Positions 37,182 through 64,000 of a stretch of 64,000 nucleotides of DNA are shown piece by piece. The translations under genes and the position numbers were made by a program. Positions within the stretch are counted from its first letter, which is position 1; each line of letters starts with the position of its first letter. Under the pieces are notes generated by a model. That model searched no databases and was not told where the DNA came from. It saw only the letters and a list, made by a program, of their open reading frames with translations. Source of the DNA: Buxus sempervirens (taxonomy: Eukaryota > Streptophyta > Magnoliopsida > Buxales > Buxaceae); NCBI GenBank assembly GCA_947561395.2, contig OX387191.1, positions 35,481,439 to 35,545,438 on the forward strand. Direction: 5' to 3'.

Positions 37182-39454
37182 TATCAGCACCCTATTTTTG
37201 CACCATAAAATTGCCTAAGAAGCATATCTTAAACTGACATATATGTGGGCACGTAAATCGAGGTTTTTATAGTGAACTTGCATTTTTGAAATAACAAGCC
37301 CATAATAAAGAGAATTTTGAGCCGATTCCGATGCACCAAACCGTTCTCAAATCGGATCTCAAATGGCTAAGTTATGAATAAAAGAAATAAAGGGTAGTTT
37401 GGGGATTTTTACAAAACCGAAATGGGATGCAACATGGCTGCCATGTGTATGCCATGGTGGCTGCCATGTAACCAATGATAAATTAAAATTTTGTGGGGTT
37501 GTTTTAGTAAATAAGTAAGTTTACTAATGGGGTTTGTTATGCAAATAAATAAAAAATTTAATAACAAAGTTAAAAGAAAATAAAAAAATAAAAAAAATAA
37601 ACAAAGAGAAATGAGTTGGACGAATTGGTCCAACTCATATTCTCTTGAGATATTGAAACTAAGCCTAAAAAATATAAGCCGAATAAAAATGTGGGACAAT
37701 ATAGACTTTGACCAAACCTAAATGAATGAAGGGTTTAAGAGAGGAATAGTAGGAGTTAGGAGTTTAGGTGTTTAAGAGGAGAAGTTAAGAAAATGAAAGG
37801 TTTAAGAGAGGAAGAGGAGGAGTTAAGAGTTTAGAAGAGGAAGAGGAGGAGTTTGGAGTTTAGGTGTTTAAGAGAGGAGTTAGGAGTTTAGGTGTTTAAG
37901 AAAGGAGTTAGGAGCTTAGGTGTTTAAGAGAGGAGTTAGGAGCTTAGGTGTTTAAGAGGAGAAGTTAAGAAGTTGAATGGATGAGAATTCTCTATAAAAA
38001 GGATAGAAGTTGGGAGCAAAAGAGAGAGGATAAAAAGAAGAGAGTTCTTAAGAAAAAGCAAAGAGGGAAGTGAGAAAAAGAGGTAGTATAAGAGAAAAGA
38101 GGGAACATCTGGAGTTGAGCACATCAGTTTCCGGGAAATCGACTCCATACCAGGTTTTTTTCATTATTTTGTTTATTGATTCTTTAATCAAATATTTTTT
38201 TTATGTTGTTAGATTGTCAAATGAAAATAATACAAAGCATGTCACTGTTATGACCGAATCTGAATTTTTCAGTGTTATTAAATTGATAAATGAAAGTATA
38301 CAAAGCATGTCTCTTATCTGGCCGAATCTGTTGAATGAATGGATATGTGGGTTGAATTTTGAGCATTTGATAAACTAGGGTGCCTAATTTGTTATTCTGA
38401 AAAGTTAAAGGATTAAAAAAAAACTGATTGTATTTAATGTTTTAGTCCTTCTTTAAAACCCTTTTTTTAAGAACCCCTGGTGTTCATTTATTATTTCTTT
38501 ATTTCTTTCATGTTATTTCTTTAATCATTTTCTAAATTTCTTAATTATTTTTAGATAATATGCTTAATTAACATACTTAACTATACTAACCAAATTTTTT
38601 ATTAATTTCTTAATTCTTTAGATAATATGCTTAATTAATATACTTAACTATACTAACCAGATTTTTTTATTATTTTCTTAATTCTTTAGATAATAGGCTT
38701 AACTAACATATTTAATTTTTTTAATTTATTAATCATAGGCTTAAACATTTGTAACTCTTATTAATTTCTTATAACACTTCTTCTCTTGTCCAAATCCTTA
38801 GAAATAAGAATAAAAAAAATGGAAAAATAAAGTGTAATCTTCAATGGTTAAATATGATTGAATTTTTTACACATGCTTTGTACAAATAAATTACCATAAA
38901 AAAATTCAAAAAAAAAACAATAAAAAATGATTGGGATAATGGAGCATGTTAATTCCTCTAATCTCTTGTATATATGAGAAAGATAAGATAAAAAAATAAT
39001 AAAAAAATAAAAAGGAAAAGAAAAGATAAATAAATAAATATTTTGAAGTAACCAAGTACATTGCTCCATGATAAAATGTTTGATTTAGAATTTTTTATTT
39101 TGAATTTTTTATATGTATTATACATGATGTAATATAGCAACCTTCATTCCTCCAATATTTGTATACATGTGATCATAAAAAGAATAAATAAAAAAATATA
39201 TAAAAGATAAAAGATAAAAAAAAAGAATTAAATAATAGTAAAACAACCCAAATATTATCCAACTAATTTAAGGGAACTCATTTTGGTGGGGCAATCCAGG
39301 GTGTTCAAGGACTTCCCTGGGTTGTAATCGGGTCACTTATCCGAAATCACTGGTTTAGACCAAAAGTCAACAAGGTGTTTACCTGCACCATTTCAGGTAG
39401 TGGCGACTCCATTAAACATGTAACCCGCTTTTCAGCGCGCCCGAGGTGCGCACA
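37182..39454 (+). mobile_element. H: solo LTR, Tat-like (2.27 kb)
   Basis: It is flanked by CATCC at 37177-37181 and 39455-39459. It starts TATCAGCACCCTATTTTTGC and ends GAGGTGCGCACA, with the GTGGCGACTCC block near 39401. It holds about six units of AGGAGTTTAGGTGTTTAAGA (37740-37970) and a repeat of TTAACTATACTAACCA (38570-38665). Confidence 0.85.
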
Positions 39455-39741
39455 CATCCTTCTCCCACCTTTTGTCCTCACCTCTCCACCTACAACTAGA
39501 GAACATCTCTTCCATCCCTCCACCCTCAAATGCTTATAAAATCCCCATATTACTCCCTTGATCATCTATTACACCTTTTATTTCTCTTATATCTTCTTGA
39601 AGGCAAGGAAGAAGACCTTTTTTTGGAAGACAAGGAGAGTCTCTCTCATTGCTGTCCACATCACTTGGAGAATCAACACAAGTCTAGAAAGAGAAGGTAA
39701 TATAAAGGTGAGATTCCCACCAACTTTGTATCTAACATATG

Positions 39742-42104
39742 TGTAGACACCCCAAATTGCACAACAAAAATAATCAATAATCAGCAAAAATCATTATCTC
39801 CTTGGAAGCCAGCACAAAATTTGAGAAAATGAGTTTTTTCCTTGTATCCGACAACTCAGGTCGGATACAAGTGTCTTTCTTCGTATCCGATGGAATATGC
39901 CGGATACAAGCAGGCTCTAGTGTATCCGGCATCATATGCCGGATACATTAAGGCACTCGTGTATCTGACCTGACATGCCGGATACACTAGTTTTGCTCAA
40001 AATTAGGGTTTTCCGAGAGTTTTCACCTTTTACCATCATATCCCTCATTAAATGAGTGGAAATCTCGGAAATAGCCTTAGGGTTAAGGTTGGTGGGCTAT
40101 AGACCTTATGTTGTGTCTACCATCTCACCAACCCTAACCCTAGCCTTTGCCTATAAATAGGAGGCTCCTCCTTAAGCAAATGGCCATTAACTCTCTTGCC
40201 ATGAACTCTCTTGCCAATAATTCTTGCCAAGAATCTCTGCCAAGAAGAGCTCCGAGTGAAGAGGGAAACCGCTGCGGAATTGCTTCCAGAACTCAGGTAA
40301 GCCTCAAACTTATCTTTTATTTTCTATTTTACATTTCTAGATCTAGATCTCTTCTTCTACCTTTCTGTAGAATAAGGCCTTTTTGTGTGTATGAAAATCC
40401 TTCCCCGGCTCAAAGTATCTCAAGACTCCCCCTAGCCGTAAAACGTGAAGGCGGGATCTAGGAGAAACGAGACTGGGGATTGACCCTAGTACTAGAACCT
40501 ATTTAGAATAAAGCCTTTTGAATCTTTGAAGCCCGTTTCATATTCAAAGTACCCCAAGATTATCTTGAAGAACCGTGTTTAACGAGGAGAGAGAACTAAG
40601 GGAAACGATAATGGAGCGGAACCCTAGGTTGCTTTTAGAACCCTATTTTAAATGAATGAGAATGCATGCTATGTTGTTATATTGTTCTTGAATGATTTTC
40701 ACTTACACATACATTGCACCCGTTTTGGCGGGATAGGCTCATATTTTGGGTTTATTACATTTATTGTGATAAATCTGAAATAAATGGCCTCAATCAATTC
40801 TGCAATGTTTTTAAAATGTTTTTAAAAGATTTGGATTCATCTTGCACGAATCACACACACTTTATCACTATTTGGAGTTGGTTTTTATAAAAAATGGCTT
40901 AACTTGACAGCAACTGTACCCCGACTTCGGACACTCATAACTTCATCGTCCGGATGAATTTTGGAGTGATTCTAGAACCATGGGAAAGGTGAGGCTGTCT
41001 AGTTTATGCCTACCAAATTTCATTAATTTCTATCAAGCGGATGTTTGACACCTCTCTGTCGAAGTTGATTGGACAGTTCAGGTTTAAATACGGAACTTGT
41101 CACTTCGACGGAGCGCCATGTGTTCGTTTTAAATCCAATCCGAGTGATTTTTGTTTCTGGGCACTCCTTTATGAGTATAATTTCAAATCCAGTTGGTTTC
41201 ATAATTGTTTGACTCCATTTGTATTATTGGTAACAGATTTACTCAGAACTGCTCATCAGTACTTTTCTGGGTAAATCTATGATCTTCGGGGCCTGTTCGG
41301 GAGACCACCTAAGGTACATCCGAATGAATTTTTGTATGAGGCTAGTTTCGTTCGAAATATGGCCATACAGACTTCAATCACACCAAATTTCGTGGATTTT
41401 TACGGAGTGGATTGTTCTAGGTGATTTTCCAAACTTGCATGCTTATCACTTTTGATTTTCCCCAGCAGCAACTTTAAAGGAGCATAACTCCTAGGATTTC
41501 AACCGGATTTACTTGAAATTTTGCATGAGTCTCTTATTTACCATGATCTTTCAAATGGATTTGGTTTGATTCAATTTAAAATTGATTTTGAATGATTTCA
41601 AGACAAATGGCATTACTTTTCACCGAATTTTCCGGATTTAACTCAACTTGGTTTTGTGCAACTTTTGCTTTGGGTTTCCATTTTTGTTGATATTCCAGAA
41701 GTGATATTGACATAAAAGAGGATCTAGAATCCCTTTGGATTCCTCATGTGAAAATATCACACATTGGCTTAATTCTTTTCCAATGTTTTTAATGATTTTT
41801 AACAAGCTTTCTTATCTTTTTTGCATGAACAAACACTTGGCAACCACCTTGTGTGGGTGAATGGGGGTGCCTAACACCTTCCCCTGTTCATAATCTAATG
41901 CCCTTACCCATCTTTGGATTTGATTTTCAAGTAGAGTTATTTTTACTCTAGAATTTGCCTTTTAGTTATTTTTGCATATTTTTGAACTTTTTGGTGTCCA
42001 TTCACAACCCAAAATTCTGAATGGTGGCGACTCTCCCAATTTTGCGTTGAGCCCGTGTGCTGACGGAGGGGAAATCATCCCGGTGATTTTTCCCATGTCT
42101 CACA
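39742..42104 (+). repeat. J 5' LTR (2363 bp)
   Basis: It starts TGTAGACACC and ends TCTCACA. U3 has four GTATCCG..CGGATAC hairpins (39845-39990) upstream of a TATA box at 40152-40159. A strong splice-donor-like CAG/GTAAGCC lies at 40296/40297. The GGTGGCGACTC block sits near the end, as in Tat LTRs. Confidence 0.92.
40152..40159 (+). promoter_or_regulatory. TATA box of J 5' LTR
   Basis: TATAAATA sits about 410 bp into the LTR. The same box is at 53804-53811 in the 3' LTR. Confidence 0.6.
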
Positions 42105-42106
42105 AC

Positions 42107-42125
42107 TGGCGATTCTGCTGGGGAC
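42107..42125 (+). other. J primer binding site
   Basis: TGGCGATTCTGCTGGGGAC lies 2 nt after the LTR end. This wording is the tRNA-primer site seen in Tat/Ogre elements. Confidence 0.8.
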
Positions 42126-42369
42126 CTGTGGATTTAAGCCGTTTTGTGTATTTGTTCATGCTTTTTCTTACTTTTGAATGCTTGCTATTTTGCTTATTTT
42201 ACTTGGGCATATTGAATCTCCAATTTGATTTGCATGATTAGAAAAATTCACATGGATAAAAGCATGGGTATGTTGCTTGATTGTGTCTATGAATGTGTTT
42301 AAGGGAAAACCCATGTTGTAATAGGACTTTGATATGTGTTGTGAGAGCATGTGTTCTTTTAGGTTTCAA

Positions 42370-42845
42370 TACCATGAGGTGAACATGAAAAAATTTAAAA
42401 ACTTGAAATCTGGAAATTTAGTGTTAATTGCGGGTATTCAAGCATGTTTCCCATGAATAATGCTTTTTAGTGCTTAATGTGTGTTTTATGCCATGCTTTT
42501 GATTTGGGGGTATAGAATGACATGATTTGAGCATGAAAACAATGAGCAATGAAATCTGGAAATTTAGTGTTAATCTTGGGTTTTCAAGCATGTTTTCACC
42601 AACAAAACCTTTCTTACACCATGTCAAGTAGTTGCTGAATTTTTAGGCATCAATTTGGGATATGAGTGATACACTTTGAGCATGAAAACAATAAAAAAAA
42701 AATCTGGGAATTCAGTGGCCATTTTGGGGGTTTTCAAGCATGCTTTCTTGGACAAAAACACATATTGAACAATGCATTTAGTTGCTGAATTTTTAGGCTT
42801 CAATTCGGGTAAAAATAATGCACCTTTGAGCATGAAAAAGAGCAT
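42370..42845 (+). repeat. J leader tandem repeat (about 125-140 bp units)
   Basis: About four diverged units carry AAATCTGGAAATTTAGTG, TTTTCAAGCATG and TTTGAGCATGAAAA. The array resumes after LTR K at 45238-45300, which shows that K split it. Confidence 0.75.
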
Positions 42846-45232
42846 TGTAAAACCCCAGTTTTGAGTAGAAAAAAAATAATAATAATAAAAATAAAATAAA
42901 ATAAAATAACAGTCACAGTAAGGAAAATAAACAAATAATAACAGTAGATGAAAAAAAAATATATGCACATATAGATGTAGGTGCAGGTTAAATCAAATTT
43001 ATTATTGCTAGGAATTTGTGGTCATCAGTGTTAACGAAAATAAAGTGGAAATATTAATAGGTAAGTTGTATTCGGACCCGGAAATAAATAGAAATAGTTC
43101 AATATCTGTAAATCCGGGAAAGCCCTACACTAATGAGGGGTAGGAAGGGGATTCCGAGGGTAAAGGGTGAATTAGGTTTAATCCGGGCGGTGTCTATAAA
43201 TAGGTAACTCATACAAACTTTTTGGGGATTTGGGAAAAGGTTGTTGCTCGGGAGGAAATTAGGGCGGCGGCCGAGCAGCTTAACTCTCGAGATGAAATCC
43301 ACCAAGGATGGCCGGAAGCTTGAAGAAGGTCTTCAATACTGGTGAGTAGCACTGTTTTAAAACCGAGGTTTTAGTTTATTCGTAATGTATTTTGAAATGC
43401 ATGGTCGTATTGTGAGTTCTGGGTTTTTCTGGAATACCGCGAGTTACGAACGAAGATTGAAAATTAATGTGAAATTAAAGTTGTTTAGATTAAATCCAAA
43501 ATGGGTTGGGAAGTCTTCTGGGAGCATTAGGAGTGTAATGGAGCAATAACAGACCTAAACAAACCAGCCAGAGTTGGAGGTCTTGAAATAACAGAGACTC
43601 GAAATTCGCAGTGGGTATCCGCCCACTTGGCGCCCACTTGCGCCCACTTCGGGAAGTAGGCGCCTAAGAAAGTTGATCTGGCGCCGAGCTCGCGCCTACC
43701 TGGCGCTTAGCTCGCGCCTAATTAAAACCGATGCGCTTTTCTCGCGCCTATCTCGCGCTCTTCTCGCGCCTTTCTCCCCCTCAGCTCGCGCTCACTTAGT
43801 GTCGAGTGAGCGCATGGTCCATTTCCACCTATTTTTCTATCCGCCGACTGGTGCTCACCTGGCGCTCACTTCAGGAAGTGAGCGCATACCCAATTTAACT
43901 TACCGAATTTGATTTCCGACTGAACCAAGGGGGATTTTGATGTCTTGGGGTTTATATCACTTCACTAATCACTTGTTGGTAAACTTGGAACCTGCATTTC
44001 TTATTTAAATTCCTAGGAGAATGCTAGTGGCAAATTCTTAAAGATTCCTAAGGATGAGTGTGGGTGATTTTATATATGTTGTGCTGGATACCAAAACTCT
44101 AGGAGTTCTTAGTAGTTTTCTCCTTGAACTTATACACTGTTCTAATTGAGAAATTATTGACTTCTGGTTTTCATTTGTTTTGGGAAATGCTGAAATGTAT
44201 TGTCTTGTTATAAATAACTGTGTTTGTATTCAAATGGCATGGTTTTGTGGAAATGAGAAATACTGAAAGTATTGAGATACTGTTTGGTCCAGAGGGACAG
44301 GTGATGAACTATGATGAGATATACATGATGTGAAATGAATGGTTTTTACTTTAAATGTTGAAATTGAGATTATACGATGTTTTACTGTTTTAGTCTAGCT
44401 TGTCCTGGATCCAGAGTCTAAGCTTAGTAATGGGATGCTTTTATTTTATTGGAGTAATGGCATGGCCATGGAGTGTTGCCACGACTGGTGTAGAGCAGCC
44501 AGAAACCCTGAGTAGGCCTGGTTGTCAATGCCGAAACCCTGAGTAGGCCGGCATTGGATGACGAAACCTTGAGTAGGCCGTCATTTCAGAGTATCCGAAA
44601 CCCTGAGTAGGCCGGAACTGTGTACATGGAGGTGTGGAGGTCGCTCTGGCATGTTGATTAACCAATCAAATATTTGTATGACATTGACCATTTGGATTTA
44701 TTATTTATTTATCTGTTTTAGATGCTATGGAATAAATAGTGGAATTTGTCTTTCTTGGAGCATGGTTATAATGATTTAGTTTCTGGAATTGATCGAAGTT
44801 TTGTTGACGACGGAATTACCGATGTTAATTTCGTTTATTTTAAATTGCTTCCTAGACCTCTGGGGTCAAACAAATTTTAAAAGGGTTTACGCAGATTCCA
44901 CCGGGTTATTCTTGTTTTCTCGTGTGATTATTCGATCATAAACCTACAACTAGAAGATGTGTATTGCTGCATGCATGTGCTACTCGCTGAGATATTCGTA
45001 TCTCACTCTTTTGTCTCTGTTTGTTTATTTCAGATACGTATGGAGAGCCGGAAATTGCGGGTAGTGAAATTGGGTCATGTGAGTTTCACTTTGGGATTAT
45101 TTTAGTGCACTCTGTTACCTAGCATTATTTTAGTTCATGTTTTCCTCACTCTGGTAGTGCGATCCTGTTATTTATATTAACCTCTGGGTACGAGTTACGG
45201 GTTCCCATGTGGCTCGGACCCAGGGCGTTACA
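42846..45232 (+). mobile_element. K: solo LTR of a Ty3/Gypsy element (2.39 kb)
   Basis: It is flanked by AGCAT at 42841-42845 and 45233-45237. It starts TGTAAAACCCCAGTTTTG and ends CAGGGCGTTACA. A TATA box TATAAATA is at 43195-43202. It contains a CpG-rich CTCGCGC zone (43600-43890) and four hairpins with the loop AAACCCTGAGTAGGC (44496-44616). L is a second copy. Family probably chromovirus-like by its ends, not proven. Confidence 0.85.
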
Positions 45233-45299
45233 AGCATGAAATCTGAGATTTAGGGAATGCTTTTGGGTTTCAAGCATGTTTAGCATGGTTTATTTGTTG

Positions 45300-46690
45300 G
45301 CACAAAATGATAACATGCTTATATGCTATTTTTTTGGGTATGTGATAGTTGTGTGCATATTGAGTGGCTTGTAATACCTTGCTTGCTTATGTTTTCACTT
45401 TCAATATAATGTCATATGCCTTGGCTTGAAATTGTATGCATGGCTACGAAAAAGAGTGGCAAGGGGCTGGGACGTTGTGAATGTACCTCAATTTTAAATG
45501 CACTTGAGCACTTTAAACTATTTGCACAACCTACCCATAACCTATAGGAAGTTGAACCATGAATGTGGGTAGCTTGGTGCACCGAGGTCGATACTTCGGA
45601 AAGCAAAAGTGAAAACATTCACCTTAGAATTTAAGTCAATGATGTGATGACAATGGGATCTGTGATTCGATTCCGGGCATCACTAGACTTGAGTTCTAAG
45701 TTGCCAATTAAGCTAAAACCCAAAAACCATACGCTTGAAGGTGGAGAAACACGTTTTCAGCTAAAAGTACACAATTGCGTTTGGGGAATTGGGTGTAAAT
45801 GTGGGAAGGCCGTTTGCATGTTCACAGGCCAAGGTATAATACCATATTGAAGGTAACACAAGGTGGCAAGGTAAAGCCATGTATTCTTTTTATCATCTTC
45901 ATGAAAATTCAAAAAAAAAAAAAAGCCATGGTGTCCATATGCTTGGGATGAAATTTTTTTCAAAAATGTTTATAACCTAAGGTTGGTGTAACCCATAGGA
46001 TGAGTTTCCAACTCAATTTAATGGTCATCCTACCCAAAGTCCAAGCAAGAGGCAACCAAGTGTACAAAGTCCAACAATTGGTATGTAACTTTGGAGGGTA
46101 CAAGTACCCTCATGGATTTGGGAATTTTAGCTAGAATGATTTCAAAGCCCAATTTGGGGCAAGTTTTAAAGGCCAAGTCAAGGTGAACATCAAGTGGGAA
46201 TGAAAATAACACAATCTGGTGAAAAAATGAGTCAAAAAGGGCCATTTCGGCATTAACCGGCAACTCAGGTCGGTTAAGAAGAAGTTTATTCATATCTGGC
46301 ATATGTTATCGGTTACAAAGACCTATGCGTGTATCCGGCTAATTATGTCGGATACAGTAAGCCATAGCCTTATCCGATATATTATGTGGGATACATTCAA
46401 AAAATGCACAAATTGGTTTTCCAGTCCAAATTTTCAGAATAAAATGCCTAAAACACTGTGGATAATCTCTAGGCACCCCGAAAAGAACATAAAAATGTTC
46501 CAAAAATACAGAATAAAAGAAAAGAAAAAAAAAGAATAAAATAAAACATTCTTTTAGGATTTAAACTAATTTTGAAAATCAAAGAGGGAACCAAGGTGTC
46601 ATATTTTTTGATACCAATTCAACTCAAACATGTTTCAATCAAGCTCTTGAACTTGAAAACTGAGAAAATTCAGCAAAAAAAAAAAAGAAA
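45300..46690 (+). other. J leader, unclassified part
   Basis: Non-coding by eye. 46250-46395 holds decayed versions of the U3 GTATCCG..CGGATAC hairpins. Confidence 0.5.
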
Positions 46691-47085
46691 CCTTTGGTTG
46701 GATATTTTTATCAATCAAATCAAAACATTTGTGGGACACTTGGAAGCCCTAGAATATTCCAAGAAACCTTTGGTTGGTTATTTTTATCAATCAAATCAAA
46801 ACATTTGTGGGACACTTGGAAGCCCTAGAATATTCCAAGAAAACTTTGGTTGGTTATTTTTATCAATCAAATCAAAACATTTGTGGGACACTTGGAAGCC
46901 CTAGAATATTCTAAGAAACCTTTGATTGGTTATTTTTATCAATCAAATCAAAACATTTGTGGGACACTTGGAAGCCCTAGAATATTCCAAGAAACCTTTG
47001 GTTGGTTATTTTTATCAATCAAATCAAAACATTTGTGGGACACTTGGAAGCCTTAGAATATTCCAAAAAACCTTTGGTTGGTCTT
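46690..47085 (+). repeat. 76-bp tandem repeat, about five units, each with a hairpin
   Basis: The units contain TTTTTATCAATCAAATCAAA, then TTTGTGGGACACTTGGAAGC and the hairpin CTTGGAA-loop-TTCCAAG. Units are nearly identical. The open frames across them are a by-product of a unit length with no net stops. Confidence 0.9.
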
Positions 47086-47850
47086 TTTCGTACCAATCAA
47101 TTGAATTTTGTGGGCCATTTGAAAGCCTCTGAATTTCAAACATCAAACTTTTTTGGGCCGTCTAAAAGCCTCTAAATTTTAGACACAATCCTTTTTTGGG
47201 CCGTCTAAAAGCCTCTAAATTTTAGACACAATCCTTTTGGGCCGTCTAAAAGCCTCTAAATTTTAGACACAATCCTTTTTTGGGCCGTCTAAAAGCCTCT
47301 AAATTTTAGACACAATCCTTTTGGGCCGTCTAAAAGCCTCTAAATTTTAGACACAATCTTTTTGGGCCGTCTAAAAGCCTCTGAATTTTAGACACAACCT
47401 TTTTGGGCCATTTGAAAGCCTCTGAATTTCAAACATCAACCTTTTTAGGCCATTTGAAAGCCTCTGAATTTCAAACATCAACCTATTTTGGGCTGTCTAT
47501 AAGCTTCTGAATTATGGACACATACCCTTTGGGCCATCTAAAAGCCTCTGAATTTTAGACACATATCCTTTGGGCCGTCTAAAAGCCTCTGAATTTTAGA
47601 CAAATTATTTCTTTGGGCCGTCTATAAGCCTCTGAATTATAGATATATATCCTTTGGGCCATCTAAAAGCCTCTAAATTTTAGACAAATCATTTCTTTGG
47701 GCCGTCTAAAAGCCTCAGAATTTTAGACACAACTTTTTTGGGCCGTCTATAAGCCTCTGAATTATAGACACGTATCCTTTGGGCCATCTACAAGCCTTCG
47801 AATTTTAGACATTTCTCATTCTTTGGGACCTTTGGAAGCCCTAAAATATT
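47086..47850 (+). repeat. hairpin array, about 41-bp units, 18 copies
   Basis: Each unit has a TTTGGGCC-type lead, a 7-8 nt stem, the loop GCCTCTRAA and the complementary arm. Stem classes are TTTGAAA/TTTCAAA, GTCTAAAA/TTTTAGAC, GTCTATAA/TTATAGAC and, at the end, TTGGAA/TTCCAA. Confidence 0.92.
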
Positions 47851-47986
47851 CCAAGAATAAAAAAAACAAAAAAAAATGGAAAAATATAGAAAAAAAAACA
47901 AATAAATCTGGACTTGTGTTCACCTAACCCACTTATCTACATTTATAGGTGTGTGACTCAGATTAAATGGGAGCTGACATGTTTCT

Positions 47987-49861
47987 TTGCTTTTCCTTAC
48001 CCAGGTACACTTACTTGCAATCATTGCTCCCGTGACCAGATCCAAAGCTCGAGCAATGAATATTGAAGAAAACCAAGCCCAAGCTACTGTCCCTACTCAA
48101 GACTTTGCTCAGCTGCAAGAGCAGGTGGCCGGACTAGCTAAGATGCTAGGAGACTTACTGGCGGCTCAGGCCCAACAGGCACAGGCCCAAAACCAAGCTT
48201 CTACTTCCCATCAAGCACCGCCACCCCAAGCCTACGTTCCGCCTCTGGCTCAACCCATGCCTGAACCCATCTCTGAGCCAGTCCCTGAACCTATCTTGAT
48301 CCAGGAAAACACCGTGGAAGAGATAGAGAAAGAGAAGGCTAGGGAGGAAATGGAAAGAAAAATGCTGCTCAAGATAGAGAGGATCCAGGAAGAATTGAAG
48401 GAGGTAAAGGGGGGAAACAACTACGGAGGTACCACCTTCGATGACTTATGTATGTACCCGGATGTATGCCTACCGGCCAAGTTCAAGTGCCCGGACTTCG
48501 ACAAATTTGACGGCACAGGCTGCCCTATGAGCCATTTGAAACTATACTGTGGGGCTTTGTGCCAGTTTGGTCGGGATGATGGCATACTGATTCAACTCTT
48601 TCAGAGGAGTTTGACAGGATCGGCCTTGAGGTGGTTTGCCACAGTTGATCATGGGAAGATTAGAGGATGGAAGGACCTGGCAGACACCTTCTTAGACCAA
48701 TACAAATTTAACTCGGGGATCGTGCCAGACCGGTACGACATTATGAGGATGAGCAAGGGCAAAGATGAATCTGTGCGGCAATATGCCAAGAGGTGGAGAG
48801 AGGCTGCCTCCCAGGTCAGGCCGCCTATGCTGGAACCTGAAATGATCTCAACATTCATGGGTACGCTGGGGCAGCCTTTCTACAATCACCTGGTGGGTCA
48901 GATCACCACCAATTTTGCTGCCCTGGTACAAGTGGCCGGCTGGATTGAGGATGGGATCAAATCTAGCAAGATAATTGATTATTCCACCATGATCAGTTAA
49001 CAAGACTCCACTCATAACAAGGGAAATGGTAATGGAAAGAAAAAATCTGAGGAAAGGAGAGAAGCAGAAGTGAATATGGTGCAGCTTCCCAAGGGACCCG
49101 TTCAAATCAATGCCCATCTAGTTCCTTTGCTGCCTATCCAAATTAATGTCCCTTTTGCACAACCTGTGAAGGAGGAAGCAGAAATAAGGAAGAGATGGGA
49201 ATTTTCAAAACTGCCTATGAGACCATTTGAACTTTTACCTACCTCACTTCAAAAGGGTTACGTGACTTTGAGGTTGCCAAATCCTCATGCAAGCAAGGGG
49301 AAGGGTTATGATCCATCTGCAATTTGTGAGTATCATATGAGCACTCCAGGGCATACCACTGATTGTTGCTTGGCCCTAAAGCACGCAATTCAGGATTTGC
49401 TGGATAATAACTCTTTATCATTCAATTTAGTCACACCCACTCCTCCTCCCACCAGCAACAATGGGGCAAGCAGCTCAAATGCAATAGGGGCAATTTTCTC
49501 TGGAGAAAGAAGATTTGACCCTTCTCAACTTCTTGCTCCTATAGGGTCAATTGTCTGGGTTTATTTTGAAAGGGAAGAAGAACAAGAAAATATGATGGGT
49601 GGGGAAGGAAAAAAGAATGAAGAAAAAGGAAAAGAAGAGCCAAAAGAAGAAGAAATGGTGCAGATAACCATGCCTACACTGCATGAGCAATCGATGCAAG
49701 ATGGTGTAAAGATTGTTCTAGGGCAGAATATTCTACAAGAAGCCAATACAAAAAATGGGGCAGAGTCGATTGAGAAAGAAGGATGGCAGAGAAAGAATGG
49801 GGGTGTTTTCAAAGAAAAGAAAGAGGCAAAGGTTGAATTCATTTTGCCACACATTGATTGA
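47987..49861 (+). mobile_element. J gag-like region
   Basis: A Pro/Gln-rich N-terminal part and a short coiled-coil-like Glu/Lys stretch lead into a Ty3/Gypsy gag core (KFKCPDFDKFDGTG, LTGSALRWF, ESVRQYAKRWREAA). A later part has a single C-H-D-C-C-like cluster (CEYHMSTPGHTTDCC), typical of Tat/Ogre gag. About one break is seen across it. A strong pyrimidine tract and acceptor (CTTACCCAG at 47996-48004) precede it. Confidence 0.8.
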
Positions 49862-52800
49862 GCAGTCATCCAAGTTCTAGATCAAGTAACGTCACTTCTC
49901 CCAAGGGCTGAGCATGATGTCCTAAATATGAAGGCAATGGCTGATCAAAGAAAGGAATTCTTGCCTCAACCAGCAGAAGATGAAAATTTTTGCAAAAATG
50001 GAAAAAATCAACTTTTGTCTGTGAGAACAGGGGCAATTTTCGAATTCCCATGTTCTTTGAAAAGAAACCCCCATAAGGAGAATGCACATTTCCTGAGGAC
50101 TCTAAGGAGCCTTGTTCTCAGGAAGTGATTTAAATAAAGGCTCTTTCAAAAGCAAAAAAAAAAAAAAAAAAAGTTTTTTCTCTTTAACATTTTTCTAAAA
50201 AAAAAAAGAAAAAAAAGTTTTCAACAAGGTCCTGTTTTACTTATGAGTCATATCTCCTATTGAATTTCATTAAGTTGAATATGACTTCGACATTGGGCTC
50301 AATTTTGAGACCAAAATCGAAGAAAAAGACATTTTATATGAAAATTCAAATCTTTTTCAGTGTCATGAGAAGAAAATTCTGCAACATTATGAAGTGACCA
50401 ATTTTATGGCCTTTGGAACCAAAGATAACCCACAGTCTTCAACAGAAAAGATAGAAGAATATTTGAAGTTTCTTCATTAGAATACAAAAAGGATCGCATC
50501 ACTTGCTGATTCGTTCAAAGGGAAGTTGATAATATTGTTTGAAGAAATTTTGGGGCTTTGCACTTGAAAATATGGGAGAAGATTTGACCTTTTCGTTGGA
50601 AATAGAATTGGGCATCATCTGATGAGATTGATCAAAAGGTGAAGAACTTGTTCATAACAGAGGTTCTATTTGAAGAGGCTTTTATCTTGATAGAAGTTGG
50701 TTAAAAAGAAAAAAAAAGGAAAAAAAAGGAAAGAAGGAAAAATCCTGAGCCAGTCATGTAGTGCAACTCTACCAAGTCTGAAAATTCAAATTTTTCTTAA
50801 AATGATAAGAGGCCTTTCTTTCTTATATCCCAAAAAATTTTGAAATCCCTAGTTAGACCCTTTGAGCTTGATGCATTTTTCCAAGTAACCTAAACTGAGA
50901 ATTGTAACCCCACACTGGGGCAAATTTATTAAGGCATAAAAAAAAGGAATGAAGGGACAATTATGGAAGTTCAAAAGGGATTTTGAAGATGTTTTCAGAA
51001 AATGGGGCAAAGAAATAAAAAAATAAAAAAAAGAGAAGAAGGAAAAAGAAAAAGGAAGAAAGAAGAAAAAGAAATCATCAAAAGCTATGGGATATTTGGA
51101 GAATGTCTTCAAAATTGTGAAGAGAAGAATGGAAAAAAAAAGTTCAATATTGAGGAATAAGTTTCAAATGAAGAAATCACAATGGAGGAAGAACTTCATT
51201 ACTGGGGGGCAATTTTGTATTCATTCCAAAGGAAAAAAATGCCTTAAGAATTACAATTTCAGTTAACCCATTTGATCATATGGTATTTGAGCCTTTTATT
51301 CCTTTTCTTTCTAAACAAACATTAAGCCTTCATTTCGTCCCATTCATAAGTCCTCTTTGATTAAGAAATTTTGAATTAAGGCAGTTTTGACTACATAGTT
51401 GCTGGTGATGAAGGATTAAAAAAAAAAAAGAAGAAGAAAAAAAAATGTAGTGAAAACCCAGAAGGGCGCTACATGACAAATAATCAGCTATCTACAAGAA
51501 GGAAATCGTCAGAGAGGAAAGTCCAGAATTGGCATAGATTCAGGTGAAGTCCTCATGTCGGTAGTTATTTTGAGATACAGTCACTTTTCAAGTGATTGAG
51601 GAAAATTCTCTTTTCAAGATTGGAGCAACATACTCAGAACTATGATATGAATCATCTGTGAAAAAGTTAATGGCCATCAAAATTGTCATTAAGAAATTAT
51701 TGCTGAAGTTGAAGTCATAAATTCTCATATCATGGATACAATGGAGAAACAATTGCTCTTGAATTGGATGAAGAAAAATGTCTTTCTAGACTGGGGAAAA
51801 ATAGTCAGATTGAAAGAGTCGTCATATCTGGATCATCAATTGACAAGCCGATGGTCATGGGAATGATTCTAAAGGTTCTAAAGGCTTATTTTGGTCTTTC
51901 TTCATTTTCTGAAATAATCTTCTCATCATTCAACTTGATTTTAATTCTTTTGGACTATATGCTAATAAGTGTTTGGATCATTTTTCAAAAAAAATATAAA
52001 AACACAAAAAAGCAAAAAAAATATTTTTGGCATATGATGAGCATTTATGTCTTTTCATAAAAACATTGGTTTTGCAAGCATTAGAGAATTCTGAGGCCAT
52101 TAGTATCAAACCTATTTTTGTATTTGCATTTCTTTATAAGGGTTTCTTTTTGCAAAGGTTAAAAAAAAAAGAAGAAAGAAAAAGAAAAAAAAGAAAAAAA
52201 AAAGGGAAAAAAGAGGATCATCTCTACTGAGGGGTAAATACTACTTCAAGCAATCAAAACCGGGGCATGCTCAACGCCTTTCCTTTTGGGTTTTCATTGA
52301 AATAAATTACAGCATCTGGAAGAAGCAGTCAGGCCTTAGTCTTCGGATTTAAAAAAAAAAAGAAGAAGCTTCCAAGCAGTTGCATGTTTTCCCCTTTAAA
52401 CAAAGGTTTTCAATTCTGAAGAAGGATTTTACTGGAGTAGTAAGAAGGCATGAATGAGAGATCATGGGTTGTAAGGGTATGAGGTTAGATCAATTGATCA
52501 TGATTTTCAAATCCATCAGTCAAGAAGAACCATTCACTTAGGTAGTTGAAAAGAATGAAGGCAGGTTATGGGCAGCAATGGCACATACATCCTTATTGAG
52601 AGAGCAAGAAGATGAAGAAGCAAAAGCAAGTTGCAGAATATTCAAGCACAGGTTTGGGCATCAAATGGCACCCAGGTAAATCAAATAAGAAAATCAATCA
52701 GGAAAATTCAATAAAATATTTCCTTCCTTAATGTTGAAAAACATCAAAAGCAATTGAGTTTGCAGAGGTCAATTTTAAATCCACATTCTTTTCAAAATTT

Positions 52801-53416
52801 GCTTGTCTCAGATTTCTTTTCATAGCCACGAGAGCTCAAAGAAATCTGAGATAAGGAAGAGACGCCACCCCGTTAGACTATACACAGCAGGGGTTTCATT
52901 GGCTACCTTCAAATCCATGTTTTTTATCACTCATTTGTTTGACCAAAGCAAGTTCGATTAATGAGGTGTCTTTCAAACGTGCAATTTTGAGTTGTGTCTA
53001 TTCTTTGCTGTTCATTGTACTACAAAGTCTACTATTTTCACAAAAAAAACCCTATTTTGCCTTAAAATCCACTTCACAGTCACGAGAGCTCAGTGGAATT
53101 TGGGACAACTTGGGGGAAATGTGCTGGTTAAAAGGAAAATATTCACTCAATTTTTAACTTGGTTTGATAAAAAATCAGTTTTCAAAAATCTCATTTTGGG
53201 CTTAAAATACACTTCACAGCCACGAGAGCTCGGTGGTATTTAAGACATCTTGGAGAGATGCCCCCCTTAAAGTTAGGGCTTTTTGGCAAATCTTCACCAA
53301 AAAATTATTTTTACAAAATTGAATTGAACCAAGCAAATCATGGTTAAGGGAGTACAATTTGGGTTTGTCTAATCTTTTCAGCTCATTGCTTCGCAACTCC
53401 CGCAAAGAGGGGCAGT
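49862..53416 (+). other. J 3' internal region without recognisable pol; PPT at its end
   Basis: AT-rich with many A-runs. I looked for reverse transcriptase, RNase H and integrase motifs and saw none. Three diverged copies of CACGAGAGCTC with a shared lead occur near 52828, 53082 and 53220. The purine tract AAAGAGGGGCAGT ends at 53416, just before the 3' LTR. Confidence 0.65.
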
Positions 53417-55755
53417 TGTAGACACCCCAAATTGCATAGCAAAAATAATCAATAATCAGAAAAAATCATTATCTCCTTGGAAGCCAGCACAAAATTTGAG
53501 AAAATGAGTTTTTTCCTTGTATCCGACAACTCAGGTAGGATACAAGTGTCTTTCTTCGTATCCGATGGAATATGCCGGATACAACTCAGGTCGGATACAT
53601 TAAGGCACTCGTGTATCCGACCTGACATGCCGGATACACTAGTTTTGCTCAAAGTTAGGGTTTTCCGAGAGCTTTCACCTTTTACCATCATATCCCTCAT
53701 TAAATGAGTGGAAATCTCGGAAATAGCCTTAGGGTTAAGGTTGGTGGGCTATAGACCTTATGTTGTGTCTACCATCTCACCAACCCTAACCCTAGCCTTT
53801 GCCTATAAATAGGAGGCGCCTCCTTAAGCAAATGGCCATTAACTCTCTTGCCATGAACTCTCTTGCCAATAATTCTTGCCAAGAATCTCTGCCAAGAAGA
53901 GCTCCGAGTGAAGAGGGAAACCGCTGCGGAATTGCTTCCAGAACTCAGGTAAGCCTCAAACTTATCTTTTATTTTCTATTTTACATTTCTAGATCTAGAT
54001 CTCTTCTTCTACCTTTCTGTAGAATAAGGCCTTTTGTGTGTATGAAAATCCTTCCCCGGCTCAAAGTATCTCAAGACTCCCCCTAGCCGTAAAACGTGAA
54101 GGCGGGATCTAGGAGAAACGAGACTGGGGATTGACCCTAGTACTAGAACCTATTTAGAATAAAGCCTTTTGAATCTTTGAAGCCCGTTTCATATTCAAAG
54201 TACCCCAAGATTATCTTGAAGAACCGTGTTTAACGGAGAGAGAGAACTAAGGGAAACGATAATGGAGCGGAACCCTAGGTTGCTTTTAGAACCCTATTTT
54301 AAATGAATGAGAATGCATGCTATGTTGTTATATTGTTCTTGAATGATTTTCACTTACACATACATTGCACCCGTTTTGGCGGGATAGGCTCATATTTTGG
54401 GTTTATTACATTTATTGTGATAAATCTGAAATAAATGGCCTCAATCAATTCTGCAATGTTTTTAAAATGTTTTTAAAAGATTTGGATTCATCTTGCACGA
54501 ATCACACACACTTTATCACTATTTGGAGTTGGTTTTTATAAAAAATGGCTTAACTTGACAGCAACTGTACCCCGACTTCGGACACTCATAACTTCATCGT
54601 CCGGATGAATTTTGGAGTAATTATAGAACCATGGGAAAGGTGAGGCTGTATAGTTTATGCCTACCAAATTTCATTAATTTCTATCAAGCGGATGTTTGAC
54701 ACCTCTCTATCGAAGTTGATTGGACAGTTCAGGTTTAAATACGGAACTTGTCACTTCGACGGAGCGCCATGTGTTCGTTTTAAATCCGATCCGAGTGATT
54801 TTTGTTTCTGGGCACTCCTTTATGAGTATACTTTCAAATCCAGTTGGTTTCATAATTGTTTGACTCCATTTGTATTATTGGTAACAGATTTACTCAGAAC
54901 TGCTCATCAGTACTTTTCTGGGTAAATCTATGATCTTCGGGGCCTGTTCGGGAGACCACCTAAGGTACATCCGAATGAATTTTTGTATGAGGCTAGTTTC
55001 GTTCGAAATATGGCCATACAGACTTCAATCACACCAAATTTCGTGGATTTTTACGGAGTGGATTGTTCTAGGTGATTTTCCAAACTTGCATGCTTATCAC
55101 TTTTGATTTTCCCCAGCAGCAACTTTAAAGGAGCATAACTCCTAGGATTTCAACCGGATTTACTTGAAATTTTGCATGAGTCTCTTATTTACCATGATCT
55201 TTCAAATGGATTTGGTTTGATTCAATTTAAAATTGATTTTGAATGATTTCAAGACAAATGGCATTACTTTTCACCGAATTTTCCGGATTTAACTCAACTT
55301 GGTTTTGTGCAACTTTTGCTTTGGGTTTCCATTTTTGTTGATATTCCAGAAGTGATATTGACATAAAAGAGGATCTAGAATCCCTTTGGATTCCTCATGT
55401 GAAAATATCACACATTGGCTTAATTCTTTTCCAATGTTTTTAATGATTTTTAACAAGCTTTCTTATCTTTTTTGCATGAACAAACACTTGGCAACCACCT
55501 TGTGTGGGTGAATGGGGGTGCCTAACACCTTCCCCTGTTCATAATCTAATGCCCTTACCCATCTTTGGATTTGATTTTCAAGTAGAGTTATTTTTACTCT
55601 AGAATTTGCCTTTTAGTTATTTTTGCATATTTTTGAACTTTTTGGTGTCCATTCACACCCCAAAATTCTGAATGGTGGCGACTCTCCCAATTTTGCGTTA
55701 AGCCCGTGTGCTGATGGAAGGGAAATCATCCCGGTGATTTTTCCCATGTCTCACA
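53417..55755 (+). repeat. J 3' LTR (2339 bp)
   Basis: It aligns end to end with the 5' LTR. The main difference is the loss of about 24 bp inside the U3 hairpin array. The target duplication ATATG follows directly. Confidence 0.92.
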
Positions 55756-58284
55756 ATATGTCAAAATCATATCTTTTTGAATATAATCCTTTTTATTGTT
55801 TTAATACTTCATTCTTGATATATTTTTCTCACCATTTTCTTCTTTTGCATACCAATGTGATCCTCTTTGGTAAGAAGGGGACTCTTCAATCAAAAAGTGG
55901 GAGGAGTGTCTCATTTATCAAATACATAAGGGTGCTAGATAGTTTGTTTTCTTCAAATATCCTTTGTACCCCTAATTAACTCTCTCCTCTTCAAATATCC
56001 TTTGTACCCCTAATTAACTCTCCCCTCTTTCCCTTCTTTTAGCTATTTTCTTGTTTGTATAGTCATGATATTGGCCTCTTGTCTTCTTGTTTCTCTTCAA
56101 GAGTCATCATCACAAATTTAGTCCCATGTTCACCATTTTATTGCACATACATACATCATTTGCACATGCATGTGTTCTTGTGTAGAGGTAAGTAGGAAGC
56201 ATGTCTAGGCTCACTTAGTATCTTTGTTTTGCTGTTAATACATAAAAGGAACCTCACCTACAGCATGTAGTATAAACGCACAAACCATGTCACACACACA
56301 CACACAAATCGCATCATCAAAGTAGGATTAAAGTTATCCCACCATCTTTTATGCACTATTTTCATAAGATTTGTCGATGTTTGTATGCATACATATTTAT
56401 TGTAGCTTACTACTTTATATGTTTACTTGTGTGTGGTTTGAATGGTTGTTCATGAGCAGAGATTCATCCCATTTTGAAAAATCCCATGAAAGGAGACCAT
56501 TTAGGCCAAAATGGGAAATATGAACCACTGTGAGTTCACTTTGGAACTCACAGTCAGTCGCGAAGGTCACAGGGAAGCCGGTGAACGGAACCCTAGTGAG
56601 ATTCCGGCCTTTTTTGGGATTCGGGTTGGTTCCGCATACACAGCGCGGATCAGACCCAACCGCACTATGTATGCGGTCAGATCCATTTAACCCATAAAAG
56701 TCCATTTTCTTGACCTGGATTCATCTGGTTTGACCCAATTTCAATTAATCTAAACCATATGGGCCTTTGGGTTAGCCCAAACCCATTTTTGGAGACCTAG
56801 GCCCATTTGGACTCAATGAGATATTGTGGGCCTTCCAACGGAGCCCACACTCAGTCTGGCCCAAACCAAAGCCCATTTTAATAATGGGTCAAAGGCCACT
56901 TGGTTAATTTCCCATAGGCCAAGTCCAAGCCCATTGGACCTTAAAAGCCTTAACCCACTTAATTAATTTGCATGTTTAACCCAAAACCAAACAACCCAAT
57001 CCAATAATAGGGTTACCCAATAACCCTAATGGGGCCTCAGGCTTAAGCTCAACTTGACAATCCAATGGGCCTTCCAACAGGCCCCATACCTGATCCACTT
57101 CAAGATAACATCAATTAAAATAAAGGGGACCTACACCTTCAGTGGTCCCCACTCAGACCAAATAAACAAGTATGCTGGACTAGGAAAATATGGTGAGACT
57201 GAGTTGACTCGAACCAGGGAAACCCGAGGGATCCGTTAAACTGACGGGGGGGGGGGGGGGTGGGGTGTCTTCGAATTTCCTCGGACGTAACCGAGAACTT
57301 ACCTGAATCTCTAAATAAGCTGCAGACCAATAAATATTAGATCGGTTAGGCACCCTGGTGTCTGCCTGCACCTCTCAGGCAATGGCGACTCCGAATGTCC
57401 CGAGGCATGCATTCTACATGCGCCTCGTCATACGAAAACCCATGCGCACAATGATTTAAGGAAGAAAAGATTGGTTCCTTTCAGCTTTTGAATGACTGTG
57501 GGCTCGGGAATAGCCCACAAGGGTGTCCACTTAGTCAACAAGTCTATTTATGAATGAATCTCGGGTAAAACAAAAGGCGGGCTGTAACGCCTTGAAACCT
57601 GGTCTGCCCATATGGCGCATTGACTCGTCCCAGAGCTTTACTTACGGGCCCAAAAGAACCTAATTGATACAATCAAGGGCAAGTACATGGTAATCATCAA
57701 AGTGCAAATAAGCATAAGAATCATGGAATAAATATTTCCATCTAACAAAAGTCACCTATATAATAATCTTAAAGATGTGATATCTATGTATAACAAAAAG
57801 GGTAACTAAATGCTCATAATATATCTCTAATATGTGCCATCATATACTAAAGTCATAATCCAAAAGAGAGTTATTACATTCCCATTTACAATTCCTAAAA
57901 CCTAAAACCAATAACATAAGGAGAACTCTACTATGGGCGGTAGTAGTCCTCAAGCCTATACTTAGGCTCTCCCTTTGGCTCTGCCCCAATATCGTGTGCA
58001 CATAGAGGATCTGAAAACAAATCCAGTAAAAACAAAACTGGCATGAGACTAAAGTCCCAGTAAGCAGCAAACATGCATGAATATAAGCAGTTTATGCAAT
58101 TTTATAAGATCATGATAATATTCTCAGATATAAAGTATAAACTCAAGTTAAAGAATCTCAATCGGATCATTTCGACAGACCCAATCATTTACTACAAGCA
58201 TGTCATGGTAGGACTCATAATTCAAAATAAACCATTCACATCATTTGCTAGAACCAATGCCTTAATACACAAACCAAGTGAGAT

Positions 58285-58545
58285 TACTAATTCATTGCCA
58301 AGTGAGATTACTCATCCACTACTAAGTGAGATTACTCATTTACTACCAAGTGAGATTACTCATTCACTGCCAAGTGGGACTACTCATCCACTACTAAGTG
58401 AGATTACTCATTTACTACCAAGTGAGATTACTCATTCACTGTCAAGTGGGACTACTCATCCACTACTAAGTGAGATTACTCATTCAATGTCAAGTGGGAC
58501 TACTCATCCACTACTAAGTGAGATTACTCATTCACTACCAATCAA
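58285..58545. repeat. G hairpin array (about 24-bp units)
   Basis: Units have the form AGTGA-GATTACTCAT-TCACT or AGTGG-GACTACTCAT-CCACT, separated by 3-5 nt. Further single units lie near 58713 and 58757. Confidence 0.85.
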
Positions 58546-60179: not shown

Positions 60180-61045
60180 TTGGGGATACCTAAGGGTTAT
60201 CAAGGGGTACCTTAGTGTTATTTGCAGGGGTACCTTGGTGTTTCAAGGGGTTTACTTTAGTTATTCCAAGGGGTATACTTTAGGTATGCTTGGGAGGTAT
60301 ACTTTAGTTATACAAAGGAGGTACTTTATTTATAGAAGGGGTATACCTTAGTTATATGAGGGGGTACCCTTAGGTAATACAAGAGGTATACTTAGGTAAT
60401 ACAAGGGGTGTACCTTAGTTATAGAAGGGGGATACCTTAGTTATATGAGGGGGGTACCTTTAGGTAATAAAAGGGGTGTACCTTAGGTATACAAGGGATG
60501 TACCTTAGTTATATAAGGGGGGTACCTTAGTTATATGAGGGGGAGGGGGGGGGGGGGTACCTTTAGGTAATACAAGGGATTTACCTTGGATAATACAAGG
60601 GGTGTACCTTAGTTATATAAAGGGGGTACCTTAGGTATAATTGGGGGGTTACTTTAGGTAATACTTGGGGGTGCTTTAGGTATAATTGGGGGATACTTTA
60701 GGTAATACATGGGGGTACTTTAGGTATAATTGGGGGATACTTTAGATATAATTGGGGTACTTTGGGTAATACTTGGATGATACATTGGGTAATACATGGG
60801 TGTCGTCTAGGTAATACATGGGTGTACCTTAAGTATACTTGGGTGGTACCTTGGGTAATACATGGTGTACTTTAAGTAATACATGGGCGTATGTTAGGTA
60901 TCCAAGGGGGTACTTTGGGTATACTTGAGAGGGTACCTTTGGTAATGCAAGGAGGTACTTTAGGTATACTTACGAGGTACTTTAGGTATTCTTGGGAGGG
61001 TGTACTTTAGATTTACTTTAGGGGTGTGCCCTAGGTATACTTGGC
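60180..61045. repeat. G degenerate tandem repeat (about 20-24 bp)
   Basis: Some 35-40 variants of GGGGTACCTTAGGTAATACA run through the tract. A run of 14 G lies near 60545-60557. Confidence 0.85.
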
Positions 61046-62897: not shown

Positions 62898-64000
62898 TTT
62901 AATGCCCCGGATCCGAGTCACATGAAAACCCGTAACTCGTATCCAGAGGTTAATATAAATAACAGGATCGCACTACCAAAGTAAGGAAAACATGAATTAA
63001 ATAATGCTATGTAACAGAGTGCGCTAAAATAATCCCAAAGTAAAACTCACATGACCCAATTTCACTACCCGCAATTACCGGCTCTCCATACGTATATGAA
63101 AAACAAACGGAAATAAAAGAGAGATACGAATATCTCAGCGAGTAGCACATGCATGCAGCAATACACATCTTCTAGTTGTAAATTTATGATTGAATAATCA
63201 CACGAGAAAACAAGAATAACCCGGTGAAATCTGCGTAAACCCTTTTAAAATTTGTTTGACCCAAGGGTCTAGGAAGCAATTTTAAACTATACGAAATTTA
63301 CATCGGTAATTCCTTCGTCAACAAAACTCCGATCAGTTCCAGAAACTATATCATTATAACCATGCTCCAAGAAAGACAAATTCCACTATTTATTCCATAG
63401 TATTTAAAACAGACAAATGAATAATAAATCCACATGGTCAATGTCATACAAATATTTGATTGGTTAATCAACATGCCAGAGCGACCTCCACACCTCCATG
63501 TACACAGTTCCGGCCTACTCAGGGTTTCAGATACTCTGAAATGACGGCCTATTCAGGGTTTCGTCATCCAATGCCGGCCTACTCAGGGTTTCAACATTGA
63601 CAACCAGGCCTACTCAGGGTTTCTGGTTGCTTTACACCAGTCGTGGCAACACTCCATGGCCATGCCGTTACTCCAATAAAATAAAAGCATCCCATTACTA
63701 AGCTTAGACTCTGGATCCAGGACAAGCTAAACCAAAATAGTAAAACATCGTATAATCTCAATTCCAACATCAAAGTAAAACCATTCATTCCACATCATGT
63801 ATAACTCATCACAGTTCATCATCTGTACCTCTGGACCAAGCAGTATCTCAAATACTTTCAGTATTTTCTCATTTCCACAACCCATGCCATTCGAATACAA
63901 AACGTAGTTATTTATACCAAGACAATACATTCAGAATTTTCCAAACAAATGAAACCAGAAGTCAATAATTTCTCAATCAAAACTGTGTATAAATTCAAAG
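62898..64000 (-). mobile_element. L: LTR copy of the K family, cut by the window edge
   Basis: This is the reverse complement of the last 1.1 kb of K, with clear matches through CTCGTATCCAGAGGTTAAT and the four-hairpin array at 63505-63625. It truncates LTR C at 62897. More diverged from K than J's LTRs are from each other. Confidence 0.8.

Follow-up and report, generated by a model that had tools for sequence, protein, structure and literature searches.

What is a row of hairpins with nearly constant loops and changing stems doing ahead of the gag gene of a plant retrotransposon? The question is raised by a 64,000-nt stretch of Buxus sempervirens DNA (the window), in which the original prediction, made from the letters alone, described an array of about 23 such hairpins and took the paired changes of their arms as the mark of a selected structure. 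We find that the array is real and unusual in form, and that its interpretation as a selected structure is partly supported.

The hairpin array and its host element

Hairpins of this kind (H1) were located by profile searches blind to pairing. These confirmed the array, with 23 units between 46739 and 47855, six with an 11-nt loop and 17 with a 9-nt loop, and Tandem Repeats Finder reported arrays of 76 bp and 41 bp. The array end, which had been put at 47847, shifts to 47855, and the four stems named in the prediction were all present in their places. The array comprises the following features:

46739-47067, + strand: five H1 hairpins with the 11-nt loop GCCCTAGAATA (one with GCCTTAGAATA), found by profile searches, 76-bp period; units at 46739-46763, 46815-46839, 46891-46915, 46967-46991 and 47043-47067
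46769-46795, + strand: first copy of a second hairpin (H2), TTTGGTTGGT...ATCAATCAAA, in the spacer part of the 76-bp unit, also modelled by RNA folding, and repeated with the unit
47118-47809, + strand: 17 H1 hairpins with a 9-nt loop, mostly GCCTCTRAA, found by profile searches, 41-43-bp period
47831-47855, + strand: terminal H1 unit with an 11-nt loop, stem TTTGGAA/TTCCAAG with one G-U

The five upstream units have the stem CTTGGAA/TTCCAAG plus one-arm variants. The 9-loop stems are TCTAAAA/TTTTAGA, TCTATAA/TTATAGA and TTTGAAA/TTTCAAA, with GGGC or AGGC directly 5'. Counting 7 pairs in each of the 23 units, 98.8% of 161 stem cells were Watson-Crick or G-U, compared with a mean of 85.3% and a maximum of 93.8% when 3' arms were permuted among units (5000 permutations). 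The loop GCCTCTRAA, predicted to be constant, is nearly so; GCCTCAGAA, GCTTCTGAA, GCCTTCGAA, GCCTTAGAATA and GCCCTAAAATA are further variants seen in the window. The outermost counted pair (G-C in GTCTAAAA/TTTTAGAC) did not hold up: it reads A.C in 481 of 1243 family profile matches (about 50 of these matches being 11-loop units) and is therefore probably no real pair.

H2, which the original prediction did not list, is contained in the 76-bp units, and its arms covary little. Arm pairing in 324 distinct spacers was 8.99 of 10 pairs versus 8.87 in shuffles (maximum 8.92), and for the 95 distinct arm pairs the value of 8.65 did not exceed the shuffles (maximum 8.74). A recurrent pair of arms from the first hairpin scan, GTTGCTTG/CATGCAAT, was dropped, as it sits in gag coding sequence.

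The array lies within an LTR retrotransposon with these parts:

39742-55755, + strand: LTR retrotransposon of 16 kb, with paired LTRs, target-site duplication and gag
39737-39741 and 55756-55760: target-site duplication ATATG, directly outside both LTRs
39742-42104, + strand: 5' LTR (TG...CA), found by self-alignment
42107-42125, + strand: putative primer-binding-site-like stretch TGGCGATTCTGCTGGGGAC, read from the sequence directly 3' of the 5' LTR
42846-45232, strand unassigned: solo LTR of another element nested in the leader, with ends and AGCAT duplication located
47978-49000, + strand: first open part of gag, first ATG at 48056, closed by an in-frame stop
49001-49861, + strand: second open stretch in the frame of gag, without a Pfam match when scanned separately from the first part
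53417-55755, + strand: 3' LTR, with the purine tract AAAGAGGGGCAGT upstream and ATATG at 55756-55760 downstream

The LTRs are ~2.35 kb long and 98.1% identical to each other. The gag matches Retrotrans_gag (PF03732; Pfam E 1.4e-10, 41.7 bits versus a cut-off of 24.1). Paired LTRs with a target-site duplication and a gag of the Retrotrans_gag family are features of a Ty3-type LTR retrotransposon. No pol was found at 49862-53416, where the longest open reading frame has at most 115 residues and the two + strand frames of at least 100 residues that were scanned matched no pol family. As no pol with a reverse transcriptase was found, the element is at most a non-autonomous Ty3-type member. The array is located in the leader before gag, as predicted. 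This leader measures 5.9 kb including the nested 2.4-kb solo LTR, so that the native leader would be about 3.6 kb. The solo LTR (termini TGTAAAACCCC...GGGCGTTACA, with AGCAT duplicated on both sides) lies outside the hairpin array; a unit within it (44502-44615) recurs on the reverse strand at 63512-63623.

TR-GAG elements are gag-only plant LTR retrotransposons with LTRs, a primer-binding site, a purine tract and gag, and no pol. The element described here resembles them in having LTRs, a primer-binding-site-like stretch, a purine tract and gag, with no pol found. We know of no leader array in TR-GAG elements.

The prediction had proposed to check whether other copies of the family bear arrays with yet other stems, and this was the case among the loci examined. 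A DNA search of the 676.5-Mb genome, in which 40 of 1894 candidates were scored, gave at least 107 matches, and 39 stretches were retrieved. A search with gag, in which the best 150 of 9085 candidates were scored, indicates by its number of candidates that the family is large. We examined 38 gag-centred loci, 30 from the first gag search (one being the window) and 8 further. The array was present in 36 of the 38, five of which overlap loci from the array search. The other two have no array, and their gag adjoins unrelated sequence; the switch to unrelated DNA lies near the gag start and probably reflects nested insertions. Most arrays begin with 11-loop units, continue with 9-loop units and close with one or two 11-loop units ahead of gag. 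Four loci have 9-loop units as the last detected, and nine have solely 11-loop units detected. Between 7 and 64 units were detected per locus; note that gag-centred loci end at the limits of their flanks. In one of the nine loci, part of a unit lies inverted (about 1300-1370, counted in gag orientation) at the site where other copies have the acceptor-like tract. The gag, PF03732 and reverse transcriptase matches listed fall on 14 contigs, plus one match on a further contig; the 14 contigs suggest 14 chromosomes.

Pairing, covariation and strand preference of the stems

In the reading that we prefer, the array would act as folded RNA in the sense transcript of the element and not as a DNA motif. 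Its short hairpins share a nearly constant loop (GCCTCTRAA or GCCCTAGAATA) and have GGG directly 5' of the stem, and the inner stem would keep its pairing while its sequence is free to change. On the sequence evidence, we consider it somewhat probable that such a selected RNA structure exists. The main rival is a neutral palindromic tandem repeat. It would evolve by slippage and unequal exchange during reverse transcription or recombination, and hairpin-templated copying (template switching) would sometimes use one arm to rewrite the other, so that paired changes arise with no selection on the stem.

Stem classes were counted in 1188 nine-loop units from 58 loci, after removal of 64 of 1252 rows (gaps, N, 11-loop arms or more than four departures). 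Three classes were found (A, 642 units; B, 325; C, 221; variants included). Class A is separated from class C by pairs 3 and 5 and from class B by pair 6, and in each case both arms have changed. Thus, the inner stems of the three classes differ by complete base pairs only (C-G/U-A, A-U/G-C and A-U/U-A); for A/B and A/C over stem pairs 2-8, the rough chance of this is 6e-5, uncorrected for the choice of classes. Class B also varies at pair 4, with T-A, C-G in a single unit, and U.G in 17 units from 14 loci (3 clustered events). One-arm change in other copies, which had been named as evidence against a selected structure, is common: 218 units deviate from their own class, while the other 970 fit a class at every scored arm position.

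The 11-loop units, tallied by type after removal of 35 of 1783 units, behave differently. Pairs 4-8 are nearly fixed, and pairs 2 and 3 pair poorly: widespread types have T.C at pair 2 in 46 loci, C.A at pair 2 in 29 loci and T.T at pair 3 in 20 loci. Thus, the predicted joint change of both arms applies across the three 9-loop classes, whereas 11-loop classes also differ by unpaired outer changes.

Several of these features would be expected of a neutral repeat. Class changes are few, the number of detected units differs widely between loci (see above), and the change between classes A and B runs from A-U to U-A without a G-U path, with a T.T one-arm state in 24 units from 16 loci. Moreover, stem and loop vary at similar rates, the arms being about as variable as the loop in both private and shared variants. 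Against a neutral repeat, arm copying should erase G-U pairs, but H2 has G-U at pair 5 in 328 of 456 spacers and at pair 9 in 189 of 456. The presence of arrays in nearly all gag-centred loci, with one order of unit types shared by most, also argues against it.

We analyzed covariation in 37 nine-loop types out of the 57 unit types present in at least 3 loci; we discarded a joint alignment of both loop lengths, in which MAFFT had placed the gap inside the 3' arm. In the 37 types, 99.6% of stem cells pair, compared with 13-58% in slid controls. Three of five shuffle measures were exceeded by none of 500 shuffles, including the number of double-changed cells (26 versus 6.9 shuffled) and the covariation score (0.248 versus 0.131). 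The other two did not exceed the shuffles: pairs with double changes numbered 3 versus 2.9 (412 of 500 shuffles reach 3), and further pair types 9 versus 9.8 (493 of 500 reach 9). RNAalifold, which had been proposed as a check, recovered the identical 7-pair stem unprompted at -4.4 kcal/mol, of which -1.1 came from covariation.

The proposed comparison with a phylogenetic null was performed with a tree-aware, R-scape-like test, in which changes were replaced on a FastTree tree built from the short units themselves (144 types seen at least 2 times, out of 534 distinct units). Stem pairs ranked 1, 2 and 4 among all column pairs (E 0.033, 1.22 and 4.26). Covariation above the null is thus seen for one stem pair and not for the others, which have these higher values or worse; with two to four inferred changes at the 3' columns of these pairs, the test has low power. 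The two negative shuffle measures and the outer 11-loop pairs do not support covariation, and slightly lower our confidence in both structure and mechanism.

Folding strength in the sense strand was modest. For 300-nt stretches from 12 loci, the mean z was -1.6 in sense and -0.4 in antisense, and the sense strand had the lower energy in only 11 of the 24 stretches. Pieces of 91-93 nt folded singly gave z of -2.2, -0.8 and -0.6 in sense and of -0.9, 0.6 and -0.1 in antisense.

Because the arms are reverse complements of each other, strand-symmetric neutral mutation should yield G-U and A-C one-arm states equally. We counted such states as clustered events, leaving out units with more than three departures. 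The G-U variants that the prediction mentioned for some units do occur, and in 9-loop stems they outnumber A-C by 52:27 (p 0.007; 68:29 under stricter clustering). In contrast, no G-U preference was observed in 11-loop cores (13:15; 16:20 under stricter clustering), and the ratio for both together was 65:42 (p 0.03). At the outer pair 2 of 11-loop units, TG (73) and CA (72) were balanced. The 9-loop excess is mostly one of A>G over T>C (35:15), with C>T versus G>A at 17:12. The flanks (leader and gag) have no strand bias, with rare variants per site of 0.51 for A>G, 0.52 for T>C, 0.58 for C>T and 0.55 for G>A, and it is this difference that weighs against a neutral repeat. G-U:A-C ratios were 43:23 for events private to one locus and 9:4 for shared events; that most events are private is unexpected if the bias came solely from selection before insertion. 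Thus, the strand test favours a sense-strand RNA for the 9-loop units and says nothing either way about the 11-loop units.

In favour of a neutral repeat, hypervariable tandem arrays are known in Tat-type elements (PMC7004042). These resemble the present element in being Ty3-type with hypervariable tandem repeats, also in forms lacking pol, but the Tat/Ogre arrays described there lie in the 3' UTR, downstream of gag-pol, whereas the array here is upstream of gag and consists of hairpin units with nearly constant loops. The Tat clade (Ogre, Retand) is defined by a second RNase H domain (aRH) in pol (PMC6317226). Taken together, a neutral repeat is nearly as likely as the reading of the array as a binding site on sense RNA. 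If the paired changes do stem from hairpin-templated copying, the array would be a good system in which to watch this process in a tandem repeat.

The original prediction also raised a pseudoknot between GGGC and the loop. GCCU in the loop could form a helix with GGGC 5' of the stem, and the two are compatible in 97.3% of cells in the 37 nine-loop types; however, this helix had no double change in these types and no signal in the tree-aware test. In 11-loop units the first G of GGG occurs as G with C in 427 cases, A with T in 51, G-T in 11 and A-C in 10, and the alternation between AGG/CCU and GGG/CCC looks like one event. Pseudoknot formation would turn pair 1 of the noted stem into a linker, which fits its frequent A.C state. 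An H-type pseudoknot is a possible form of the units, though not one supported by compensatory change.

The leader and the start of gag

Downstream of the hairpins, at distances of about 150 nt to 1.27 kb, there is a candidate splice site:

47995-48004, + strand: putative 3' splice-acceptor-like CCTTACCCAG after a pyrimidine-rich tract, with AG at 48003-48004

Across 55 loci, the two positions of this AG vary at 0.05 and 0.11, compared with 0.16-0.31 in the two codons upstream. Between the AG and the ATG at 48056, variation is least at the second codon position (mean 0.034), but the third position (0.106) barely exceeds the first (0.093); after the ATG the pattern is clearly that of coding sequence (0.238 versus 0.030 and 0.006). 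The conserved AG and the variation by codon position suggest a coding stretch that begins at a splice acceptor. The leader thus probably contains an intron ending at 48004, for which no 5' splice site was identified. Note that the leader, including the nested LTR, contains 134 ATGs, which makes plain scanning to gag unlikely.

These features bear on a second rival, control of splicing or translation, in which the hairpins would tune the use of the acceptor-like AG of gag or let ribosomes bypass the ATG-rich leader. It would fit the position of the array upstream of a conserved acceptor-like AG, and ATG is scarce on the sense strand of the arrays: in the window and related loci, 165 ATG were counted in 90.3 kb, versus 1423 expected from base composition and 1746 CAT, while the upstream flank has 430 versus 408 expected. 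However, the ATG count rests on few unit types and has small weight, ATGs are also present between the array and gag, and the intron has the gap at its 5' end mentioned above. Neither role would need a constant loop on free stems, and we regard control of splicing or translation as unlikely.

Production of a spliced gag RNA would have a precedent in BARE1 (PMC3735527). In the BARE1/BARE2 system of barley, gag is made from a spliced mRNA, genomic RNA is packaged separately and BARE2 is parasitic, as this paper describes. The likeness lies in a plant LTR element with a non-autonomous partner, in which splicing makes the gag RNA (here a putative step). BARE elements differ in being Ty1/copia and in having a 104-nt intron at the gag end (PMC3735527), whereas the putative intron here is in the leader. 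The word hairpin is absent from the main text of that paper.

A candidate packaging mark on unspliced RNA

Coming back to the preferred reading of the array as sense-strand RNA, the leader up to the AG at 48004 would be spliced out as an intron, so that only unspliced (genomic) RNA would carry the array. The loops may be bound by the element's own Gag or by the Gag of a partner, and the large number of units may add avidity to this binding during packaging or dimerisation. Hairpins that a protein reads at the loop show this pattern, in which the loop stays constant and the stem is free to vary. We put forward this full mechanism as a tentative proposal: a sense-RNA array in a leader intron would offer many copies of a binding site on unspliced RNA, with Gag as the most likely ligand.

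A more specific version, which we consider rather speculative, is a polyvalent packaging signal: dozens of tandem hairpins read at the loop, possibly as compact pseudoknots, in the leader intron, by which a gag-only element would outcompete others for Gag by adding units while its stems drift pair by pair. As to a partner, the best 150 of 15,542 candidates were scored in a reverse transcriptase search of the genome, which cannot distinguish whether a pol-bearing partner shares the leader.

The Ty1 5' leader contains a pseudoknot and kissing hairpins for packaging and dimerisation (PMC5454406). Both are LTR retrotransposons with RNA structure at their 5' end (putative here), and in Ty1 the pairing of the stems matters (PMC5454406). 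The difference is that the Ty1 leader, as described, forms one structure with a tested function, whereas the element here has many tandem units with a putative function.

To our knowledge, the way in which genomic RNA is marked for packaging in plant LTR retrotransposons is largely open. A 2025 review that covers the host factors of plant LTR elements uses neither 'stem-loop' nor 'dimeriz' in its main text, and a literature search over titles and the starts of abstracts found no description of hairpin arrays in a retrotransposon leader. If the preferred reading is true, a leader in which one hairpin is repeated many times while its stem changes would be a clear and testable candidate for a packaging mark, and the copies, which differ in unit number and stem class, provide a natural experiment.

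A role of the units as DNA-level dyad motifs, such as promoter or host-factor sites, is very improbable: the units are indeed inverted repeats at high copy number, as are the palindromic boxes in non-coding parts of Sireviruses (PMC2829016), but they keep the spacer nearly constant and vary in the half-sites, opposite to what a dyad protein site would show, and the 9-loop G-U preference is strand specific. Moreover, the array, whose mostly AT-rich stems lack a CGG-CCG core, is located in a leader, whereas the Sirevirus boxes have such a core and are found in LTRs and near env (PMC2829016).

An Rfam scan of 39000-56000 gave 3 matches with E up to 1, each below its gathering score, and none to the array. 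Other repeats with partial symmetry occur in the window. The 5' LTR contains palindromic GTATCCGACATAATATGCCGGATAC-like tandem repeats at 39883-39986, and a comparable theme recurs around 46290-46400 in the leader. Tandem arrays whose units are partly symmetric are also present at 58273-58541 (ACCAAGTGAGATTACTCATTCACT) and 60227-60996 (GGGGTACCTTAGTTATACAAGG).
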